Source of the DNA: Methylobacillus sp.
GTDB lineage: Bacteria; Pseudomonadota; Gammaproteobacteria; Burkholderiales; Burkholderiaceae_C
Direction: 5' to 3'
DNA: 52,288 nt
Assembly (NCBI GenBank): GCA_018607835.1
Contig: JABBAS010000012.1
Span: forward strand, 1 to 52,288
The notes beneath the pieces are model-generated. The model was not told the origin of the DNA and did no database searches. It saw nothing but the letters and a program-made list of their open reading frames with translations. The stretch's first letter is position 1. Every line of letters starts with the position of its first letter. A program made the position numbers and the translations under genes. Shown in pieces: positions 13,652 to 31,140 of this stretch.

Positions 13652-15424
13652 CTAGTGGGGTGACAGGTGCGTGAGCACATGCATCAACGCGTCAATGCTC
13701 AGTTGCATGTCGTCCGCAGTGGTGGACTCCAATGGGTTGTGGCTGATGCCCGCATTTTCTCCACGCACGAATAGCATGGCTTGCGGCATCACTTCATGCA
13801 GTTTCATGGCGTCGTGTCCGGCGCCACTGGGCATGCTGAAGACGGGTAGGCCTTGGGCCTTGACGGCATCCGACCAACGCTGTTGCCAGGCGGGATCGCT
13901 GGGTGCGGCAGATGCGCGAACGGTTTCGCTCAGTTGGTAGTCGACTTGGCGTGCTGTGCATATCGCGTCTAGCTTGCTCAGAATGTCAGATGCCAAGGCG
14001 TCGCGTTGTCCATCGTTGGGCGCGCGCATATCCAAGCTGAAGTGGCACTGACCCGGGACGACGTTGATAGACCCATTGGGGACATTGAGCATGCCAATGG
14101 TGGCGACGGAGTCACCGTCTTGTATGGCACGTTGCTCTGCGTAAACCGCGAACTCGGCCAGGGCGGCGACGGCGTCACGTCGGCGATCCATGGGGGTGGT
14201 TCCGGCGTGGCTAGCCATGCCATTGATTTGACCGACATAGCGAATGCTACCGTTGATGGAGGACACCACGCCCAGTGGCAAGTGCATCTCATTTAATACC
14301 GGGCCTTGCTCAATATGGACCTCTATGAACCCCAAGTAGTTGGCGGGGTTGCGTGCGAGTGCGGGAATGTCCTTGGGGTTGAGGCCTGCCTGTGCCATGG
14401 CGTCACGCATGGTGATGCCGTCTGCGTCGGTTTGGTCTAGCCACGCGTGGTTGAACTGTCCCACGACGGCGCCTGAGCCCAAGAAAGTGGCCTTGTATCG
14501 CTGACCCTCTTCTTCGGCAAAGCCAATGACTTCAAAGTGAAACGGCAGGCGTTGACCGGCGGCATGCAAGGTCTTAACGCAGGCCATGGGGGCGTAGATA
14601 CCCAAACGCCCATCGTACTTACCGCCATTGCGCACGGTGTCGTAATGAGAGCCGGTCATGAGTGTTTTGGCGTTGGCATCTTCCGCGCGGTAGATGCCAA
14701 CCACGTTACCCACCGCGTCGATTTCAACCTGATCAAAGCCACACGCCAACATATCGGCTTGCAATTGTTTCGCAACCGCTTGATGGGCTTCGGTGAGATA
14801 GGTCACGGTCAGTTCGCCGCGTGCGCTCGCACCACTATCGCTGTGCTGGGCTAAGGACTCTTGCCAATCCCACACCAAGTTGCCGAGGTGGGGCGCTTGT
14901 CCAAACTTGTCGTTGAGCCTGATCTCAGCGATTCGGTGTATGTTGCGTATGCACTCGGCCCGCTCATATTCTGGGTGACCATGCACCCGGCGCTCAAGCG
15001 TGGCAATGATTTGGGCCTTGCTCAAACCAAGGCCGCGTGGTCCGCGTACAGCCACAATGAACGGGAAGCCGAAGCGCGCGTTATAGGCGCTGTTGAGCGA
15101 TTGAATGCGCTCAAATTCTTGCGGCGTGCACTGCGTGAGTCCAGCGGTTTGTTGTTCGTTTGTTGACTCTGCCGTTAGTGTGTTGGACACCATCGCTTTG
15201 CCCGCTAACTCCGGGTGGGCGCGTATGAGGGCCAGCTGGGCATCTTCGCCGCCCGCGTCTAACGTTTGTGCGAGCGCAAACTTGAGGGCGGCAAGGGTTG
15301 CAAAGGGACGCTGCGCCATGGCCTGCTCTGCTATCCATGGTGAGTGCTCATAGACGCCGTCTAGCAGGGCCACCGCTTCCGATAGCGGGGCGGTATTGAG
15401 TTGTTCAATCGTGAGGTGGGGCAT
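13652..15424 (-). CDS. fused OHCU decarboxylase - allantoate amidohydrolase, 590 aa
   Basis: Two purine-catabolic enzymes in one chain. Residues 1 to about 165 are UraD: LNTAPLSEAVALLDGVYEHSPWIAEQA and the catalytic-His motif IRAHPELAGKAM. It decarboxylates 2-oxo-4-hydroxy-4-carboxy-5-ureidoimidazoline to S-allantoin. A linker (about 175-190) leads into an M20-type allantoate amidohydrolase (AllC/HyuC family). That domain has GSHYDTVRNGGKYDGRLG (zinc His/Asp), FAEEEGQRY (zinc/catalytic Glu), EVHIEQGPVL and PSGAGHDAMKL. The domains act on non-consecutive steps, because allantoinase (the next gene, puuE) works between them. The frame is continuous and no internal start is needed. It lies 29 bp behind puuE. 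Confidence 0.9.
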   Translation of the reverse strand: MPHLTIEQLNTAPLSEAVALLDGVYEHSPWIAEQAMAQRPFATLAALKFALAQTLDAGGEDAQLALIRAHPELAGKAMVSNTLTAESTNEQQTAGLTQCTPQEFERIQSLNSAYNARFGFPFIVAVRGPRGLGLSKAQIIATLERRVHGHPEYERAECIRNIHRIAEIRLNDKFGQAPHLGNLVWDWQESLAQHSDSGASARGELTVTYLTEAHQAVAKQLQADMLACGFDQVEIDAVGNVVGIYRAEDANAKTLMTGSHYDTVRNGGKYDGRLGIYAPMACVKTLHAAGQRLPFHFEVIGFAEEEGQRYKATFLGSGAVVGQFNHAWLDQTDADGITMRDAMAQAGLNPKDIPALARNPANYLGFIEVHIEQGPVLNEMHLPLGVVSSINGSIRYVGQINGMASHAGTTPMDRRRDAVAALAEFAVYAEQRAIQDGDSVATIGMLNVPNGSINVVPGQCHFSLDMRAPNDGQRDALASDILSKLDAICTARQVDYQLSETVRASAAPSDPAWQQRWSDAVKAQGLPVFSMPSGAGHDAMKLHEVMPQAMLFVRGENAGISHNPLESTTADDMQLSIDALMHVLTHLSPH

Positions 15425-17146: not shown

Positions 17147-17191
17147 TCTAACGCAAGTCAGGTCGCCTGTAAATTGAGAGGAAAGAAGCCC

Positions 17192-17545
17192 ATGGGATTG
17201 AGTACACACGTTTTGGACACCATGCATGGTTGTCCTGCTGCTGGGATGGCGGTCACCTTACTGGCTACCGACGGGGCGACCGCCCAAGTTTTGAAGCAGT
17301 TCGTGCTCAACGCCGATGGTCGAAACCCCGATGGTCTGCTGATTGATCATGCGGCGCTTCGTCCCGGTACCTACCGCTTCGAGTTCGATGTGGCGGGCTA
17401 TTTCGAGGCACGTGGCGTTGACTTGCCAAAACCCAATTTTCTGAACCGGGTGGGCATTGACTTTGGCGTTGCACAAGCGGACGCGCATTACCACGTGCCG
17501 CTGTTGGTGAGCCCTTGGAGTTATTCGACCTACCGGGGAAGTTAA
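17192..17545 (+). CDS. uraH: 5-hydroxyisourate hydrolase, 117 aa
   Basis: Transthyretin-like enzyme that hydrolyses 5-hydroxyisourate to OHCU, the substrate of UraD. The family start LSTHVLDTMHGCPAAGM and the C-terminal signature YRGS are both present, and length is typical. ATG 17192 has a strong GAGAGGAAAG ribosome site at 17176-17185. A TTG six codons upstream would overlap that site and is rejected. There is no signal peptide, so it is cytoplasmic. It is transcribed divergently from the gntR-puuE operon under the shared palindrome. Its own substrate source, a urate oxidase, is not in the window. Confidence 0.93.
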   Translation: MGLSTHVLDTMHGCPAAGMAVTLLATDGATAQVLKQFVLNADGRNPDGLLIDHAALRPGTYRFEFDVAGYFEARGVDLPKPNFLNRVGIDFGVAQADAHYHVPLLVSPWSYSTYRGS

Positions 17546-23207: not shown

Positions 23208-23215
23208 GCTACGTA

Positions 23216-23339
23216 GCCACTTCCGCGTATTTTTAGTTCGCTTTGGGTAGGTTGCGGGGTTTCCCCTAGGTGCATATTTTGACGAGCGGCGCCATCATGG
23301 GGGAACATCCTCAAAATGGGGGTGTATCGCGGAAGTGGC
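23216..23339. other. 124-nt inverted-repeat element, possible structured RNA
   Basis: GCCACTTCCGCG (23216-23227) and its exact complement CGCGGAAGTGGC (23328-23339) enclose 100 bases between xdhC and the second Mo-enzyme operon. Inside, ATTTTGA (23276-23282) and TCAAAAT (23311-23317) also match exactly, and GGGG-TTT-CCCC (23256-23266) can form a local hairpin. Nested complementarities suggest a folded leader RNA. The 3' arm is followed at 23341 by TTTTT, so premature termination is possible. It could be a riboswitch-like leader, a long-loop terminator of xdhC, or a small mobile repeat. Confidence 0.5.
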
Positions 23340-23408
23340 GTTTTTGTCGCCCATCCAGCGGGCTATATTTGAAACCGCATTGTTTTTTGCTTACAGGAGA
23401 GACGAGAG

Positions 23409-23876
23409 ATGCAAGTGCAACTAACCGTTAATGGCAAAGCCGTTAAGGCCGACGTGCCGGATAACACCCTATTGGTCGAGATGCTGCGTGAAAATCTCAG
23501 CCTGACCGGGACGCACGTGGGCTGCGATACCTCTCAGTGCGGCGCATGTACCGTCATCATGAATGGCGACGCTGTGAAGTCATGTAGCGTTTTGGTCGCT
23601 CAGGCACAGGGCGCTAGCGTAGAAACCATTGAAGGCTTGGCCGAAGCCGACGGCACGCTGCACCCGATGCAAGCGGCCTTTAAAGAGTGTCACGGCCTGC
23701 AGTGCGGCTTCTGTACGCCCGGCATGGTCATGAGTGCAGTCGATCTCGTGAACAAGAATCCCAAGGTGAGCGAGGGCGAGATTCGCGACTGCCTGGAAGG
23801 CAACATTTGCCGTTGCACGGGCTATCAAAATATCGTTAAAGCCGTCGCCATGGGACGCGACAACATGGTCGGCTGA
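23409..23876 (+). CDS. 2Fe-2S small subunit of a CO-dehydrogenase-family Mo hydroxylase (CoxS-like), 155 aa
   Basis: Iron-sulfur subunit with two clusters. The plant-type cluster has C39, C44 and C47 ([10 protein letters not shown]) plus a later Cys in DAVKSC. The second has [13 protein letters not shown] and [14 protein letters not shown]. It passes electrons from the Mo site to the flavin subunit. Length is typical of CoxS/QorS-type separate subunits. There is a strong purine-rich ribosome site just before the ATG. It is first of a seven-gene Mo-hydroxylase operon on the plus strand, behind the inverted-repeat element. Confidence 0.93.
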
Positions 23877-23898
23877 GCGCTGGCTGCATCGATTTGTT

Positions 23899-23934
23899 AA
23901 GCCGTTGGGATGCATAGCGGCTTGCCTGTTTTTT
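23899..23934 (+). terminator. stem-loop plus T-run between the small and large subunit genes
   Basis: AAGCCG (23899-23904) and CGGCTT (23918-23923) form a 6-bp stem. After 5 further bases (GCCTG) comes a run of six T. It sits in the 79-bp gap before the large subunit. It may be a partial terminator that sets subunit stoichiometry. The evidence is weak because the stem is short and the T-run is offset. Confidence 0.3.
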
Positions 23935-23955
23935 GACCATTGAGGAGTTTTCATC

Positions 23956-26331
23956 ATGGGTGCTTCAGATTTTGCTAACTTGCCGCACATCGGCGAGTCT
24001 GTCCTGCGCAAAGAGGACGTTCGCTTCCTGACCGGTGCAGGTCAGTACACAGACGACATCAAAATTGCGAATCAAACGCAAGCGATATTCGTCCGATCAC
24101 CACACGCCCACGCCAACGTGAAGAGCGTAAATACCGAGCGCGCGCTGGCGATGCCAGGCGTGGTGGCGGTGTTTACTGGCAAGGACATCGACGGAAAAAT
24201 GGGGGGGTTGCCCTGCGGTTGGTTGATCAATAACAGTGCGGATGGCACGCCCATGGCGGAGCCGCCACATCCTATCTTGGCGATCGACAAGGTGCGCTAC
24301 GTTGGCGACCATGTGGCCATGGTGGTGGCTGAAACGCTGCAACAAGCCAAAGACGCTGCGGAAGCGGTGGACGTGGTTTACGACGTGTTGCCCGCTTCCG
24401 TAAGCTGCGCGCAGGCCAAGGTCGGTGCGCCGTTGCACGCAGAGTCTGCTAACAACAACTGCTACAAGTGGGCGCTGGGCGATAAAAGCGCGGTGGACTC
24501 GGCCTTCCAGAGCGCGGCGCATGTGACGCGTCTCGATTTGGTGAATAACCGCTTGATACCCAATGCCATGGAGCCTCGCGCGGCCATCGGCCTGTATAAC
24601 CGTGCCAGTGACGAGTACACCCTGTACGTCGCCAATCAAAACCCACACGTTGAGCGCTTGTTAATGACGGCGTTCGTGCTCAGCTTGCCCGAGCACAAGG
24701 TGCGCGTTATTGCCCCAGACGTTGGCGGTGGTTTTGGATCCAAAATTTACCTGTACGCCGAAGACGTGGCGCTCACATGGGCCTCCAAGCAAATCAACCG
24801 CCCTATTAAGTGGACGGCGGATCGTGGCGAGGCTTTCTTGAGCGACGCCCATGGTCGTGACCACGTGAGCACGGCCGAGATGGCGATGGATAAGGACGGT
24901 AATTTTTTAGCGATGCGTGTGCACACGGATGCAAACTTGGGTGCGTATCTCTCGACATTCGCGACCGCTGTGCCCACCATCTTGTATGCGACATTGCTGG
25001 CAGGTCAATACACGACGCCTCAGATTTACGTCGAGGTTGATTCTTGGTTTACGAACACCGCGCCTGTCGATGCGTATCGTGGTGCAGGTCGTCCTGAGGC
25101 CACGTATTTGGTGGAACGCCTCGTGTCGCGTTGCGCGTGGGAGATGGGGTTGTCGCAAGCGGAAATCCGCAAGCGTAACTTCATTTCATCTTTCCCTTAC
25201 CAGACCCCAGTGGCGTTGCAGTACGACACGGGTGACTTCCATACCTTGATGGATAAGGCCAATAAACTCGGTGACGTTGATGGCTTCGAGGCACGAAAGA
25301 CCGCATCGGCGGCTAAGGGCTTGTTGCGTGGTATCGGCTACTCCAGCTATATCGAGGCGTGCGGCCTGGCTCCCAGTAATATCGCCGGTGCCTTGGGCGC
25401 GCGTGCGGGCTTGTTTGAGTGTGGCGAAGTGCGGGTTCACCCCACGGGTAGCGTGACGGTCTTTACCGGTTCGCATAGCCATGGTCAAGGCCACGAGACC
25501 ACGTTTGCACAAGTCGTTGCTGCCCGTTTGGGTATTGAGGTGGATCAAGTTGATATCGTGCACGGTGATACGGGGCGCGTACCGTTCGGTATGGGTACCT
25601 ACGGTTCGCGCTCGATTTCTGTGGGCGGTGCTGCCATCATGCTGGCGCTCGATAAGATTGAAACCAAAGCCAAAAAAATCGCGGCCCACTTGCTGGAATC
25701 TAGCGATGCCGATATCGAGTTTGCCAACGGTGAATTCACGGTGAAGGGTACCGATAAAAAAGTACCTTTTGGGCAGGTTGCGCTCACCGCGTATGTGCCA
25801 CACAACTATCCTTTGGATAAGTTGGAGCCTGGTCTGAACGAGACGGCGTTTTACGACCCCACCAACTTCACGTTCCCAGCGGGCACCTATATTTGCGAGG
25901 TCGAAATTGACCCGGCCACCGGCACCACGCGCGTTGATTCATTCACAGCAGTGGATGACTTCGGAACCATCATCAACCCCATGATTGTGTTGGGACAGGT
26001 TCACGGCGGCTTGGCGCAAGGTATTGGTCAGGCATTGCTAGAGAATTGCGTCTACGACGAGGAGACTGGCCAGTTGCTGACGGGTAGCTTCATGGACTAC
26101 ACCATGCCACGCGCGGATGACTTCCCAGAGTTCAAGATTGACAACAACAGCACGCCATGTACCCATAACTCATTGGGTACCAAGGGCTGCGGTGAGGCGG
26201 GTGCCATTGGCTCACCGCCAGCAGTGATCAATGCGGTGCTTGATGCGCTGCGCGACGTCGGTGTGACGGACTTTGATATGCCTGCGTCGCCTGGCCGCGT
26301 TTGGGCAGCGATTCAGAAAGCAAAGGCCTAA
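23956..26331 (+). CDS. form II CO-dehydrogenase-like Mo hydroxylase large subunit (CoxL-like), 791 aa
   Basis: Molybdopterin catalytic subunit of the xanthine oxidase superfamily. It has [23 protein letters not shown] at the N-terminus, [17 protein letters not shown], the active-site loop AYRGAGR (residues 373-379), [14 protein letters not shown] and the catalytic Glu747 in [22 protein letters not shown] is the form II signature. True (form I) CO dehydrogenases have AYxCSFR with the Cu-binding Cys, so CO oxidation is unlikely here. Form II enzymes act on diverse heterocycles and aldehydes. The purine neighbourhood hints at a purine or related N-heterocycle (inference). A TTGAGGAG ribosome site precedes the ATG. 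Confidence 0.93.
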
Positions 26332-26373
26332 GCGCCACGCCATCTCACAGCATTTACCAATTGGAGTAACAAT

Positions 26374-27165
26374 ATGTACACATTTGAATATAAAAGCGCC
26401 TCTAGCGTGGACGATGCCGTTAAGGCTATGGGCGAGGGCGCTCAGATACTGGCCGGCGGACAGACGCTACTAGCGACGATGAAGCAGCGTTTGGCAGCGC
26501 CAAGCGCCTTGGTGGATTTGGGCAAGATCAGCGGCCTCAGCGGTATCAAAAAAGAGGGCAATCACCTGGTGATTGGTGCGATGACGTCTCACGCGGATGT
26601 TGCCAATGACCCCACCGTTCAGAGCACCATTCCTGCGTTGGCTGCGTTGGCAAGTCAAATTGGTGACCGTCAGGTGCGCGCGCGCGGCACCTTGGGCGGT
26701 TCAGTGGCTAACAACGACCCCGCGGCCTGCTACCCCAGCGCGGTGTTGGCGCTGAATGCGACGGTTCACACCAACAAGCGAACCATTGCGGCGGATGACT
26801 TCTTCCAAGGGATGTACACCACCGCGTTGGAAGAGGGAGAAATGATCACCGCAATTGCGTTCGAGATTCCCGAAAAGGCGAACTACATGAAGTTCAAGCA
26901 GTCGGCCTCTCGCTTTGCGCTCGTCGGTGTGTTTGTGGCCAAGTCGAGCGCAGGTGCTCGGGTTGCCGTGACAGGCGCCGCCTCGTGCGTATTCCGTCAC
27001 GCCGGGCTGGAGCAGGCACTGTCGGCTAACTTCTCGCCCAGCGCGGTGAGCGGTGTTGCTGTGGATGCAGGGGATCTGAACAGCGATATTCACGCCAATG
27101 CGGCGTATCGCGCAAGCCTGATCTCTGTGATGACCGAGCGCGCAGTGGCGGCAGCTAACGGCTAA
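26374..27165 (+). CDS. FAD-binding medium subunit of the Mo hydroxylase (CoxM-like), 263 aa
   Basis: Flavin subunit that accepts electrons from the 2Fe-2S subunit. It has the FAD pyrophosphate motif LAGGQTLLATMKQRLA near residue 29, and RARGTLGGSVANNDPAACYPSAVLAL, the second FAD-binding loop of the PCMH fold. The CO-dehydrogenase flavoprotein C-terminal domain begins around residue 165. A TTGGAG ribosome site precedes the ATG. The order small, large, medium differs from the classical coxMSL order and is seen in other form II clusters. Confidence 0.92.
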   Translation: MYTFEYKSASSVDDAVKAMGEGAQILAGGQTLLATMKQRLAAPSALVDLGKISGLSGIKKEGNHLVIGAMTSHADVANDPTVQSTIPALAALASQIGDRQVRARGTLGGSVANNDPAACYPSAVLALNATVHTNKRTIAADDFFQGMYTTALEEGEMITAIAFEIPEKANYMKFKQSASRFALVGVFVAKSSAGARVAVTGAASCVFRHAGLEQALSANFSPSAVSGVAVDAGDLNSDIHANAAYRASLISVMTERAVAAANG

Positions 27166-27210
27166 GGTAAGCCTTAGAATTCGTCAAGAGTCTTGTTCGA
27201 GGGTGTTTCT

Positions 27211-28191
27211 GTGAAGTCTGTTGACGATTTAATAAGTGCCTTGCAGTCTGTTGGCTATTACGCCGACAGACGCTTGGCAACCGCTGTTTTTTTGGCCATG
27301 CGTTTGCAACGCCCCTTGCTACTGGAGGGCGAGCCGGGTGTTGGTAAAACAGAGCTGGCAAAGGCCTTGTCTGCGGTGCTTTCTCGCGACCTGATTCGCT
27401 TGCAATGCTACGACGGCATGGAGCAGCGGGAGGCACTGTACGAGTGGAACTACACCGCGCAGCTGATCCACATGCGTGCAGCAGAGAGCGCTGTGGCGGC
27501 TAAAGGCCTGTCGTCTGAAGGCGTCGCGACACTCGAAAAAGAGGTCTATGACGTAAAGTATCTGATCAGCCGCCCGTTGCTGCAAGCCTTGCAGGCGCCA
27601 GCGCCCGGCGCCGTTTTGCTGATAGATGAGGTTGATCGCGCCGACCAGCCTTTTGAGGCCTTTTTATTAGAGTACCTCGGTGAGTACCAAGTGACCATTC
27701 CCGAGATGGGCACGGTGAAGGCGACCAGCCAACCGCTCACGATACTCACCAGTAACCGCACGCGCGAGCTAAATGACGCGGTGAAACGGCGTTGCCTCTA
27801 CCACTGGTTGGACTACCCTAGCCGCGAGCGTGAGCTGGATATTGTTCGGGCGCGCGTGCCCGAAGCCAGTGAGATGTTGTCGGCGCAAGTGGCGAGCATG
27901 GTGCAGCAGTTGCGTACACAGCCATTTGCCGGCGCCTTCCAGCGCGCCCCAGGCATTGCCGAAAGCGTTGATTGGGCCAAGGCGTTGGTTGCGATGGACA
28001 CCTTGGTGGTTGATCCCGAGGTCATGCAAGATACCGCGGGTATTTTGTTCAAGCAGCGTGATGACATCGCTGCCATGACACAGGCGCTGGCGGGTGACCT
28101 GCTAGAGGCAGCGGCGGCCAGCGAGCAAGACGCTAAGGCGGGCGGCCTGACGCCGCGCCCGACGCCACCGAGCGCGGCATCACTGATGTGA
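27211..28191 (+). CDS. MoxR-family AAA+ ATPase (CoxD-like), 326 aa
   Basis: Chaperone ATPase for maturation of the Mo active site. In the CO dehydrogenase system CoxD acts on the cofactor together with CoxE. It has Walker A GEPGVGKTELA, Walker B VLLIDEVDRAD, sensor 1 LTSNRTREL and the arginine-finger region. I prefer GTG 27211 because GAGGGT lies about 7 bases upstream. A TTG at 27195-27193 would give six more residues and is possible. It overlaps function with the VWA gene 4 bp downstream; MoxR and VWA proteins work as a pair. Confidence 0.9.
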   Translation: MKSVDDLISALQSVGYYADRRLATAVFLAMRLQRPLLLEGEPGVGKTELAKALSAVLSRDLIRLQCYDGMEQREALYEWNYTAQLIHMRAAESAVAAKGLSSEGVATLEKEVYDVKYLISRPLLQALQAPAPGAVLLIDEVDRADQPFEAFLLEYLGEYQVTIPEMGTVKATSQPLTILTSNRTRELNDAVKRRCLYHWLDYPSRERELDIVRARVPEASEMLSAQVASMVQQLRTQPFAGAFQRAPGIAESVDWAKALVAMDTLVVDPEVMQDTAGILFKQRDDIAAMTQALAGDLLEAAAASEQDAKAGGLTPRPTPPSAASLM

Positions 28192-28195
28192 ATTT

Positions 28196-29419
28196 ATGAC
28201 GGTCACTGCGGAGCCAAGCCATGCCTTGGGGGATGCGCGCACGGGCAAGATGCCTGGCAATGTACTTGGGTTTTGTCGTGCCTTGCGACGTGCGGGCCTG
28301 ACCTTAGATAGCGCCCGTATTGCGCTCTCCATTAAGGCACTGGACACAGTGGGTTTACAAAATCGCGGGGATGTCGCTGCCGCAATGGAGTCGGTGTTGG
28401 TACACCGTGGTCAAGACCGTTTTATTTTCCGCGAGCTGTTTGATGCGTATTTTCGAGATCCGAAGATGGCGAATCAGTTGTTGGCACAAATGCTTCCGAC
28501 CGCTCAGGGTCAGTCTGCCCCCGACAATCGGCGTGCACGTGTTCGCGAAGCACTTAACCCTCCGAAGATCGCACCGAAAGACAGTCCGCCTCAGTCAGAG
28601 ACGCCGATTGAGCTGGATGCGGCGATGACCGCCAGCGAGGCCAATCGCCTGCGTTATGCCGACTTCAACACCTTGACAGCGAGTGAGTATCAGTTGATTT
28701 CGCAGCTGGTGCAAGATATTCCGCTGCCGCTTCCTAAGTGGCGAAGCCGTCGTTTACAAGCGTCACCGCGTGGTTCGCGCTTGGACTGGGGCAAGTTACT
28801 GAGGCAGAGTGCGCAGGGCTATGGCGTCCCGCCCAAATTGCCTCGGCGAGCCCGCAAGGATATGCCACCGCAGTTGCTCATATTTGTGGATGTGTCCGGG
28901 TCAATGGAGCGCTACGCGCGCCTGTTATTGGCTTTTCTGCATGCGGCGACCCAGGCGAAGCCCGGTGGGCGCGTCATGCCCGTTCGGCATGTTTTTGCCT
29001 TTGGGACCCAACTGACGCCTCTCACCCAAGCCTTTAACGAAGGGGATGCTGATGCCATGTTTGCGCACGTTAACCAATGCGTCTCGGATTTTGCGGGTGG
29101 GACGCAATTGGGCCAGAGCCTAGAGCAGTTTCAGCGTGGGCACGGTCGTATCTTATCTAGTGGGCGGACGGTATGTCTTATCATCTCGGATGGCTTAGAC
29201 ACGGGGTCGGATACGGTTTTGGAGCAGGCCTTAAATTGGTTAAAGTTACGCAGTGACCGTCTGTTGTGGTTGAATCCGTTGTTGCGTTTCGAGCAATACA
29301 CGCCCACCGCACGCGGGGCCACTGTCTTAAGTCGCAACGTCGATGCGATGCTGGCTGTTCATAATGTGGATAGCTTGAAAATGCTGGCGCAGAGTATTGC
29401 GGCAGTGATGCGGGCCTGA
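28196..29419 (+). CDS. VWA domain protein (CoxE-like), 407 aa
   Basis: Partner of the MoxR ATPase. The N-terminal half is helical (GNVLGFCRALRRAGLTLDSARIALSIKAL, VLVHRGQDRFIFRELFDAYF), typical of CoxE. The von Willebrand A domain follows, with the metal-ion-dependent adhesion site motif DVSGSME (about residue 231), GGTQLGQSL and the ISDGLDTG strand. It is probably cytoplasmic, tethering the ATPase to the immature enzyme. Tight spacing with the moxR-like gene shows co-translation. The pair is known to be required for assembling the CO dehydrogenase metal site. For form II enzymes its exact role is open. Confidence 0.9.
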   Translation: MTVTAEPSHALGDARTGKMPGNVLGFCRALRRAGLTLDSARIALSIKALDTVGLQNRGDVAAAMESVLVHRGQDRFIFRELFDAYFRDPKMANQLLAQMLPTAQGQSAPDNRRARVREALNPPKIAPKDSPPQSETPIELDAAMTASEANRLRYADFNTLTASEYQLISQLVQDIPLPLPKWRSRRLQASPRGSRLDWGKLLRQSAQGYGVPPKLPRRARKDMPPQLLIFVDVSGSMERYARLLLAFLHAATQAKPGGRVMPVRHVFAFGTQLTPLTQAFNEGDADAMFAHVNQCVSDFAGGTQLGQSLEQFQRGHGRILSSGRTVCLIISDGLDTGSDTVLEQALNWLKLRSDRLLWLNPLLRFEQYTPTARGATVLSRNVDAMLAVHNVDSLKMLAQSIAAVMRA

Positions 29420-29461
29420 AGAGGCCGGCGTCGATTTATTTTTTGTATAAGGAGTAGTTAC

Positions 29462-30070
29462 ATGCAGATGCAAGGTAGTCGCGAGTTGATCGTGTCGCAA
29501 CAAATTGCTTGGGATGCGCTGAATGACCCTGAGGTTTTAAAGGCCTGCATCCCGGGTTGTGATCGCGTGGAGTTGAGCGGCGACAACCAATACAACATTG
29601 GCATGGCGCTCAAAATTGGTCCTGTCTCCGCAAAATTCACTGGTGTGATCAACTTACTCGACGTCGAGGCGCCTCGCTCTTATCGACTCAAGTTTGAAGG
29701 TCAGGGCGGTCCCGCCGGGTTCGGCAAGGGGGAGTCAAAGGTGGTCCTTGAGCCCACGGCCACCGGTTGCTTATTGACGTATACCGTCGAGGCGCAAGTA
29801 GGCGGCAAGGTGGCCCAGTTGGGTCAACGTCTAATCGATGGGGCGGCGAGCAAGATGGCCGACGACTTCTTTAAGCGTTTTGACGCCCATATGGTGACGC
29901 ATCATGGCGAGGCGATCAGCTCTGCAGCCGGTGAAGCCGAGGGAGCCGATGCGGAGACAGCACCCCCCGCATCAGGGAAAGATACGCCCAGCAACGGTGC
30001 GTCACTGAAATGGTTGGCCCGGTTGGCTGTGTTGGGCTTGGTTGTTTGGTACGTCATTTCGCAGCAGTAA
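29462..30070 (+). CDS. coxG: CoxG-like SRPBCC protein with C-terminal membrane anchor, 202 aa
   Basis: A START/SRPBCC-fold protein of the CO dehydrogenase subunit G family. It opens MQGSREL and has the conserved DPEVLKACIPGCDRVEL and FGKGESKVVLEP blocks. After a low-complexity acidic linker (about residues 155-180), the last 20 residues are one hydrophobic helix (WLARLAVLGLVVWYVISQQ), a tail anchor. CoxG recruits CO dehydrogenase to the cytoplasmic membrane and helps pass electrons to quinone. The tail supports the same role for this enzyme. A strong AAGGAG site precedes the start. Confidence 0.88.
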   Translation: MQMQGSRELIVSQQIAWDALNDPEVLKACIPGCDRVELSGDNQYNIGMALKIGPVSAKFTGVINLLDVEAPRSYRLKFEGQGGPAGFGKGESKVVLEPTATGCLLTYTVEAQVGGKVAQLGQRLIDGAASKMADDFFKRFDAHMVTHHGEAISSAAGEAEGADAETAPPASGKDTPSNGASLKWLARLAVLGLVVWYVISQQ

Positions 30071-30078
30071 GGGTACCC

Positions 30079-31140
30079 ATGGAAAATTTGGATATCACGG
30101 TCCTAAGAACGCTGCAAGACTGGCGTGCCCAAGGTCGTCGGGCGTTGTTGGCGACAGTGATTCGGACTTGGGGCTCGTCGCCTCGACCCGTGGGATCCAT
30201 CATGGCCATGCGCGATGACGGCGCCGTAGTGGGTTCTGTTTCCGGTGGGTGCATTGAAGATGATTTGATCAACCGCTACACCGCGGCTTACAACGCGGTG
30301 GATGCAGCGATTCCTATGGGGGCGCCTGAGCGCGTGCGCTACGGCGTGACGGCTGACGAGGCACACCGCTTTGGGCTGCCTTGCGGCGGGACCTTGGAGT
30401 TGCTGCTGGAGTTTGACCCCAACGCCGCCGACCTGCAAGCCTTGACGGCGACGCTAGATGACGGCCGTCTGGTTCAACGTCAGGTTACGCTTGAATCCGG
30501 TGCCGTGCAGTTGACGCCTTGTGACGTCCCCTCGGTTTTGCGTGTCTCTGACGAGGCGCTCGTTAACACCTTTGGCCCAGGCTACCGCATGCTAATCATC
30601 GGTGCGGGGCAGTTGAGTGAATACCTAGCGACCATGGCCTTGTTCAGTGGCTTCTCTGTCACGGTGTGTGATCCCCGCGAAGAATATCGGGGTGCGTGGA
30701 ATGTGCCCGGTGCAAAAGTGGTGAGTACCATGCCCGACGACGAGGTCGTGGCCTTTAAGCCCGACTCTCGCAGCTGTGTCGTCGCACTAACGCACGACCC
30801 CAAGCTCGATGACTTGGCCTTGTTAGAGGCCCTTGGTACGGCGGCCTTTTATGTGGGCGCCATTGGTTCGCGCCGCAATGATGAGTCAAGGCGTGAACGC
30901 ATGATCACGCACTTTGATCAGACCACTGAGACGCTGGCTCGTTTACGTGGGCCAGTAGGCATTTACATAGGCAGCAAGACGCCGCCTGAAATTGCGGTGA
31001 GTGTGATGGCGGAGGTACTGGCCGTTAAGAACGGTGTGTCCTTGCCGCGTGATCTGATGGTGGGGCAGGCCAAGACCAAGCTCGATGTCGCTCCCAACGA
31101 TGACGGTGACCTTGTTTGCGGTGTACCCGAGGCAAGCTAA
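30079..31140 (+). CDS. XdhC/CoxI family protein (second copy), 353 aa
   Basis: A molybdenum-cofactor maturation protein of the XdhC/CoxF/CoxI family, presumably dedicated to the form II enzyme. The N-terminal XdhC_CoxI domain has TWGSSPRPVGSIMAM and SVSGGCIEDDLI, with a conserved Cys. The C-terminal Rossmann domain has IIGAGQLSEYLATMA, CDPREEYR and YVGAIGSRRNDE. I chose ATG 30079. An upstream in-frame start inside coxG would be in the wrong place relative to the domain. It is the last gene of the Mo operon, 8 bp after coxG. Confidence 0.9.
   Translation: MENLDITVLRTLQDWRAQGRRALLATVIRTWGSSPRPVGSIMAMRDDGAVVGSVSGGCIEDDLINRYTAAYNAVDAAIPMGAPERVRYGVTADEAHRFGLPCGGTLELLLEFDPNAADLQALTATLDDGRLVQRQVTLESGAVQLTPCDVPSVLRVSDEALVNTFGPGYRMLIIGAGQLSEYLATMALFSGFSVTVCDPREEYRGAWNVPGAKVVSTMPDDEVVAFKPDSRSCVVALTHDPKLDDLALLEALGTAAFYVGAIGSRRNDESRRERMITHFDQTTETLARLRGPVGIYIGSKTPPEIAVSVMAEVLAVKNGVSLPRDLMVGQAKTKLDVAPNDDGDLVCGVPEAS

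Follow-up and report, generated by a model that had tools for sequence, protein, structure and literature searches.

Form II molybdenum hydroxylases and the operon in the window

Enzymes of the xanthine oxidase family carry out a water-based hydroxylation at a molybdenum (Mo) centre with a sulfido ligand, and the electrons leave via [2Fe-2S] clusters to FAD. Form I Mo-Cu carbon monoxide (CO) dehydrogenase (CoxMSL/CutMSL) has three such subunits, with helper proteins of the MoxR, VWA, XdhC and CoxG types; in form II enzymes the subunit genes are ordered small, large, medium (S-L-M). The two forms are told apart by a loop of the large subunit, AYxCSFR with a Cu-binding Cys in form I and AYRGAGR in form II, as defined in the available part of PMC13240472, where form II enzymes are treated as a form of Mo-CO dehydrogenase and their activity is called unresolved. 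Here we describe a form II operon in a DNA stretch of 52,288 nt from Methylobacillus sp. (contig JABBAS010000012.1, assembly GCA_018607835.1), which we call the window and to whose full length all coordinates refer. We propose, with a confidence that is evenly balanced, that its S-L-M proteins form an aldehyde dehydrogenase within the form II group that passes its electrons to quinone; we infer the aldehyde substrate from genomic context and family proximity, and we also infer the quinone acceptor and the roles of the helper proteins.

A sequence-only reading of the window had described a complete seven-gene form II operon whose large subunit lacks the Cu-binding Cys, and both points are confirmed. 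The genes follow each other in the order S, L, M, MoxR, VWA, CoxG, XdhC (23409-31140), all on the + strand, all seven products match the expected domains above Pfam cut-offs, and AYRGAGR occupies residues 373-379 of L. The features are as follows.

23208..23408, no strand: 201-bp gap between xdhC and S, without a regulator gene (at this place the genomes G001, G002 and G006 have one of the GAF-Fis type, divergently oriented)
23409..23876, +: S, small [2Fe-2S] subunit, 155 amino acids (aa); PF01799/PF00111
23956..26331, +: L, large molybdopterin subunit, 791 aa; PF01315, PF02738 and PF20256 above cut-off
25072..25092, +: AYRGAGR active-site loop of L, the form II motif, without Cu-binding Cys; from the sequence
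26194..26196, +: Glu747 in GCGEAGAIG, expected catalytic base; from alignment
26374..27165, +: M, FAD subunit, 263 aa; PF00941 (FAD_binding_5), best PDB match 1ffu_C, CutM
27193..28191, +: MoxR-type AAA+ ATPase, CoxD-like; PF07728 (AAA_5) above cut-off; the listed start is a TTG at 27193
28196..29419, +: VWA protein, CoxE-like; PF05762 (VWA_CoxE), 159.1 bits
29462..30070, +: CoxG-like SRPBCC protein whose C-terminal helix is probably a membrane anchor; PF06240 (COXG), 101.6 bits
30079..31140, +: XdhC-family maturation factor; PF02625 (XdhC_CoxI) and PF13478 (XdhC_C)

For the last gene the start is most likely at 30079 (MENLD...) and not at the listed 30010, since a start at 30010 would overlap the CoxG gene. 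Its product scores 151.1 bits on NF045664 (XdhC_rel_AOR), with a cut-off of 350.

Family assignment

The domains of the xanthine oxidase family (MoCoBD_1 and MoCoBD_2 together with Ald_Xan_dh_C in L, and the [2Fe-2S] and FAD domains) are all found above Pfam cut-offs. Relatives were collected by a scan of named genomes, where 571 were found and the best 80, with an L 81-87% identical to that of the window, were kept; together with the window and 58 further loci these make 139 Burkholderiales loci (136 without duplicates), and another 64 loci, four of them on plasmids, were read for context. AYRGAGR is present in 139/139 of the Burkholderiales loci, three of which are duplicates.

None of the curated NCBIfam models compared here is reached at its cut-off. 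L scores best on TIGR02416 (CO_dehy_Mo_lg; 649.1 bits, cut-off 991.15), followed by glyceraldDH_alpha (632.8 bits, cut-off 790), and gives 238.5 bits on the xanthine dehydrogenase model TIGR02965 (XdhB; cut-off 849.5). For S and M the best models are glyceraldDH_gamma (218.9 bits, cut-off 290) and glyceraldDH_beta (213.7 bits, cut-off 350), so that none of the three glyceraldehyde dehydrogenase cut-offs (NF041018/19/20) is reached by S-L-M. Because the cut-offs for CO dehydrogenase, glyceraldehyde dehydrogenase and XdhB are all missed, we class the enzyme simply as a form II molybdenum hydroxylase, which is what the operon, judged by its sequence, encodes. It shares AYRGAGR, the S-L-M order and the cox-type helper genes with the form II 'CO dehydrogenases', and we found nothing that excludes it from them; its L belongs to a highly conserved subclade.

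The glyceraldehyde dehydrogenase described by NF041018-NF041020, which we take to be a Sulfolobus enzyme, has the same three-subunit design. That its models are the best NCBIfam matches for S and M of the window, and for the large subunit of the two outer relatives scanned (L224, L209), supports an aldehyde as substrate, with all of these scores below cut-off. Among PDB relatives of L, the CO dehydrogenases are followed by quinoline 2-oxidoreductase (447 bits), 6-hydroxypseudooxynicotine dehydrogenase (413) and glyceraldehyde dehydrogenase 4zoh (370).

In a tree of large subunits, whose root is for drawing only, the fork that joins 41 form II-type rows has a support of 87/99, below the tool's 95/80 mark, and the deep order is unsure because of the long branches of XdhB, NdhL, KdhL and the host's own paralogues. 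An AlphaFold model of L from 17 close sequences was poor (mean predicted local distance difference test, pLDDT, 42.6) and was set aside.

Proposed reaction and electron path

The protein, an enzyme of the xanthine oxidase family, would be cytoplasmic and feed electrons to the respiratory chain. Together with the MoxR ATPase and the VWA protein, XdhC would sulfurate the molybdenum cofactor and install it in folded L. Glu747, which is invariant in 17/17 aligned L proteins (the others being 81-87% identical to that of the window) and which we assume, from its role in the enzyme family, to be the catalytic base, would activate Mo-OH for attack on the aldehyde carbonyl carbon; a hydride would pass to Mo=S and the acid would be released. 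The two electrons would then run through both [2Fe-2S] clusters of S and the FAD of M to a quinone bound to the CoxG protein, itself tethered to the membrane.

The last step draws on the CoxG-like protein, which has the COXG domain in Pfam and, in a predicted model with a mean pLDDT of 82.4, an SRPBCC-like fold with a C-terminal helix. Foldseek matches the model to 2pcs and to 8uds, the CoxG of M. smegmatis (TMt 0.80). With the latter the protein shares the SRPBCC fold, an anchored C-terminus and co-encoding with a Mo hydroxylase, although the two are 20% identical in the Foldseek alignment and the C-terminus is a helix, probably a membrane anchor, in the window protein whereas it is lipid-anchoring in 8uds according to the PDB title. 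CoxG is described, in the available part of PMC13240472, as a menaquinone-binding membrane protein proposed to pass electrons to the quinone pool. On the strength of the COXG domain, the SRPBCC-like model and the fold match to M. smegmatis CoxG, we reasonably infer by analogy that electrons may reach quinone via the CoxG-like protein. As to the helpers in O. carboxidovorans, the accessible text of PMC4240915 reports that CoxD is required for Mo sulfuration, that coxG is dispensable for maturation, and that coxG mutants are slower on CO. The CoxG-like proteins of four other loci (L049, L067, L068, L077) are without the membrane-helix-like C-terminal stretch of the window protein in the alignment.

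Association with PQQ-dependent alcohol oxidation

The context that points to an aldehyde is found in relatives of the operon. On three Roseobacteraceae plasmids, with an L 58-63% identical to that of the window, S-L-M lies inside a cluster for alcohol oxidation with a pyrroloquinoline quinone (PQQ)-dependent alcohol dehydrogenase (PQQ-ADH), PedF, a YVTN propeller and ATP-binding cassette (ABC) genes, with pqqA-E also present in two of the three; in G750, PedF, propeller and ABC genes stand beside S-L-M and the PQQ-ADH is 12.8 kb away. In Polaromonas C04 (L046:15923-21404) CoxG is followed, on its own strand, by genes for a TonB-dependent receptor, a PQQ-ADH (646.7 bits on TIGR03075, cut-off 480) and a MoxJ-like protein. 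A Rhodoferax metagenome-assembled genome (L065:14536-20029) has the same set after CoxG, with a 95% identical PQQ-ADH, and since XdhC comes only after it, the set lies within the operon there; the set possibly has a role in metal or PQQ uptake. Further cases are a PQQ-ADH after the operon in L235/G602 (776.1 bits), a PQQ-ADH-system propeller and ATPase above cut-off in L126, with the binding protein below (343.8/413.6), and four Hydrogenophaga loci with PedF, verified for L045 by a curated match. At three of these four there is also a tungsten aldehyde oxidoreductase. Such a tungsten enzyme also lies near the form II operon of L130.

FIST genes, to which family we presume NosP to belong, also occur near the operon, accompanied by genes for a kinase and/or a response regulator (names verified against Pfam at L235 only). 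Several form II relatives have in common with the Pseudomonas ped/exa clusters the PQQ-ADH, PedF, the propeller/ABC genes, and FIST with a kinase and a LuxR-type regulator. In the P. putida ped cluster, the available part of PMC12997753 names PP_2663 (PA1975 nosP), the hybrid kinase PedS1 and the LuxR-type AgmR; this cluster has an NAD(P) aldehyde dehydrogenase, PedI, whereas in the window none of the ped/exa-type genes named here was recognised.

The association was compared with random placement, taking a TIGR03075 match as PQQ-ADH and a distance of up to 20 kb from L as near. TIGR03075 matches were found in 30/73 and 29/75 of two sets of L-holding genomes, and among the 59 genomes holding both, the PQQ-ADH was near L in eight (G602, G750, G530, G540, G716, G307, G028, G280), with 1.6 expected (P 0.00025); counted by genus it was 6/37, with 1.5 expected (P 0.0016). 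Over 203 loci, PQQ markers were found at 14 (including a duplicate and a weak propeller match) and FIST genes at 8, and neither in 20 control windows taken 70-200 kb away in the same genomes, which are too few to decide. We regard the association of PQQ-ADH with L as suggestive, not proven. A limited literature search found no title or abstract start that links form II enzymes to PQQ-dependent alcohol oxidation.

Expression data from Azospirillum point the same way. The available part of PMC11837500 lists CoxS/L/M, MoxR and XdhC of A. brasilense Sp7 as 2.2-6.7 fold up on fructose together with PqqBCD and ModABC/ModE, and also says that PQQ-dependent alcohol dehydrogenases rise. The A. lipoferum operon has the same gene order plus a TAXI transporter, and its L is 66% identical to that of the window; from order and annotation, the two Azospirillum operons appear to be orthologous.

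A number of observations weigh against the aldehyde dehydrogenase proposal. The association was chosen after many neighbours had been inspected, and without the three genera seen before the test it falls to 4/55 genomes (1.6 expected, P 0.07) or 3/34 genera (1.5 expected, P 0.17); the small number of control windows counts here as well. Only 59/148 L-holding genomes have a TIGR03075 match, and PQQ markers stand at only 2/60 of the loci L186-L245, while most of the relatives read have other neighbours, named mostly by eye, such as homogentisate-like genes (6 loci) or an amidase with a polyamine-type ABC system, or nothing metabolic that was recognised. The search made found no TIGR03075 PQQ-ADH in the window genome that could make the proposed aldehyde. 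L scores higher on the CO dehydrogenase than on the glyceraldehyde dehydrogenase model (649 vs 633), all glyceraldehyde dehydrogenase scores are below cut-offs, and we found no enzyme of the window L clade with a measured substrate. In Azospirillum the co-induction is weak because 576 proteins rise more than two-fold in the same fructose proteome (available part of PMC11837500); at the A. lipoferum locus no PQQ gene is annotated within 10 kb, and PMC12826043 already places a protein of the aldehyde dehydrogenase family in the exa region of A. brasilense.

As a wider and more tentative idea, which we think somewhat less probable than the proposal for the window itself, the widespread form II 'CO dehydrogenases' may be the aldehyde-oxidising, quinone-reducing partner of respiratory (PQQ-type) alcohol oxidation in Pseudomonadota, with CoxG as a general quinone-delivery tether. 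If so, the oxidation of alcohol to acid would be tied to the respiratory chain at both steps, and a common respiratory alcohol/aldehyde route would gain its second enzyme. If these enzymes oxidise aldehydes, any tally of CO oxidisers in which form II is included would be wrong. The aldehyde reading gives a long-unassigned enzyme group a role that is testable directly in cultured strains.

Other substrates

The main alternative, to which we give about a third of our confidence, is that the substrate is something else, such as a nicotinate- or quinoline-like N-heterocycle, an aromatic acyl-CoA or an amine-derived product, perhaps differing between lineages, and that the associations with alcohol genes are local. 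The ranking of quinoline 2-oxidoreductase and 6-hydroxypseudooxynicotine dehydrogenase above 4zoh among the PDB relatives fits this, as do the lineage-specific neighbours: the homogentisate-type genes and the amidase plus ABC system, the M20 and M81 hydrolases with a Liv-type ABC system at 16 named Variovorax loci, and a gene of the Asp/Glu/hydantoin-racemase family in Hylemonella. Yet no catabolic gene family is common over the 139 Burkholderiales loci, and the pAO1 enzymes NdhL and KdhL fall outside the AYRGAGR rows of the tree, though on long branches and with moderate support. A link to ureides or hydantoins was considered from the Variovorax hydrolases and the Hylemonella gene, and was dropped since these are limited to single named genera.

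Purine breakdown and the adjacent xdh genes

The sequence-only reading had favoured a purine or purine-derived N-heterocycle as substrate, and this part of its interpretation is not supported; the form II-type hydroxylase operon without a Cu ligand is. The whole basis for purines was the adjacency to xdhABC, which is real in the window (S follows xdhC after the 201-bp gap). A purine breakdown cluster, which speaks for the purine reading in this genus, lies beyond: a fusion gene that joins an OHCU decarboxylase domain with an M20 hydrolase domain of the allantoate amidohydrolase-like kind (13652-15424, - strand), an HIUase (Transthyretin family, 17174-17545) and a puuE-like gene of the deacetylase family. 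We nevertheless consider an enzyme of the purine pathway, acting on a methylated purine or a purine breakdown heterocycle, to be improbable. Across Burkholderiales, among 116 distinct loci for which 3.5 kb or more upstream of L could be read, the adjacency is found at 5 (the window, L039/G006, L043/G008, L120/G001 and L122/G002), all in the genus of the window, which comes near the restriction to this strain that the same reading had named as speaking against it. In 51 XdhB-holding genomes from a chosen list of 80 L-holding ones, xdhB was within 20 kb of L in none, by a comparison made by eye in which broken contigs may hide cases; the 51 include G008 and G009 of the window's genus, whereas G001, G006 and the window genome, in which xdhB adjoins the operon, were not on the list. 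Outside this genus the count is 0/49 genomes holding both. A dedicated regulator also separates the xdh unit from the operon in G001, G002 and G006, and the recurrent neighbours elsewhere include no purine gene family.

Even within the genus the arrangement differs. In MOLA814 (L043:7000-9160) and G002 (L122:8295-10458) the purine locus keeps xdhC without xdhAB, and both genomes have a divergent xanthine dehydrogenase elsewhere (XdhB 49% identical), for which reason a displacement of xanthine dehydrogenase by the form II enzyme was rejected. In G007, on a short contig, the regulator and another gene lie upstream and xdhB is on a different contig. The xdh adjacency that pointed to purines thus appears local to one genus and still changing, and a purine link as a general trait was rejected for its confinement to that genus. 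In a word search of the available parts of PMC10308882 and PMC12997753, 'xanthine' was absent from both, and 'molybdopterin' in the former concerns formate dehydrogenases.

The closeness of modABC, also brought forward earlier, is real (2.5 kb past the operon, on the opposite strand, behind crcB and a lapB-like TPR gene) but general: among 89 Burkholderiales loci with wide context, 12 have modAB and 18 tupAB, and 30 have molybdate/tungstate transport or ModE-type regulator genes.

CO as substrate

A copper-free CO dehydrogenase, for which TIGR02416 as the top model for L and the full set of CoxD-, CoxE-, CoxG- and XdhC/CoxI-like helpers might be cited, is very improbable, as L is far under the cut-off of that model and lacks the Cys, form II activity is, in the source cited above, not a settled matter, and the host has a form I CoxL of its own. 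Unlike CoxMSL/CutMSL, the operon also has the S-L-M order, and CO dehydrogenase was rejected as its identity. The form I CoxL of the 2.42-Mb window genome is on contig C38 (L003:43-3864), reads AYRCSFR and scores 1551 bits on TIGR02416, above cut-off; the genes after it look CoxG- and MoxR-like, and in the tree it pairs with the Afipia CoxL at a support of 100/100. With a true form I CO dehydrogenase in the host, oxidation of CO does not call for the form II operon.

Regulator, spread and neighbours of the operon

One regulator cluster is represented in 50/116 loci (43/65 named loci) and, over all loci, adjoins S divergently in 54 of 58 cases. Among four members scanned, the Fis-type HTH_8 is present in 4/4 and a GAF domain in 3/4; the best curated relative of the G001 member is DhaR, far below cut-off. 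A genome search found no match in the whole window genome, and matches in 6/10 genomes of its genus, the query's own included. MOLA814, which belongs to the same genus, has a 48%-identical homologue of the operon's regulator 1.5 kb from its sole PQQ-ADH match, which counts in favour of the aldehyde proposal. A sigma-70 promoter scan gave 0 sites against 4.0 expected from shuffled sequence, terminator-like sites were about as frequent as after shuffling, and no Rfam family matched.

Of 397 Pseudomonadota genomes sampled, 83, including that of the window, have a match to L at E <= 1e-235. Where 6.5 kb downstream of L could be read (108 distinct loci), the helpers recognised are MoxR (102), VWA (100), CoxG (92) and XdhC (85), with all four together in 75. 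Beyond the cassette, the regulator cluster (58 loci) is followed among the 139 loci by a mixed ABC-ATPase cluster (49), a 128-aa protein (23), tungstate/molybdate transport (14-21) and the Variovorax set (16-17). A compact form II operon is found in the 1.2-Mb genome G712 (L224:7662-13564), in the order CoxG-S-L-M-XdhC(split)-MocA-like, with MoxR and VWA not recognised within the 20 kb read. A TAXI-type TRAP transporter adjoins the form II operon in Azospirillum, G760 and Limnohabitans (L179, L187, L110), by annotation in the first and recognised by eye in the other two. In one lineage (L215, L217, L226, L227, L237, L238) the neighbours, again named by eye, are a CaiB-type CoA transferase and homogentisate-pathway-like genes.

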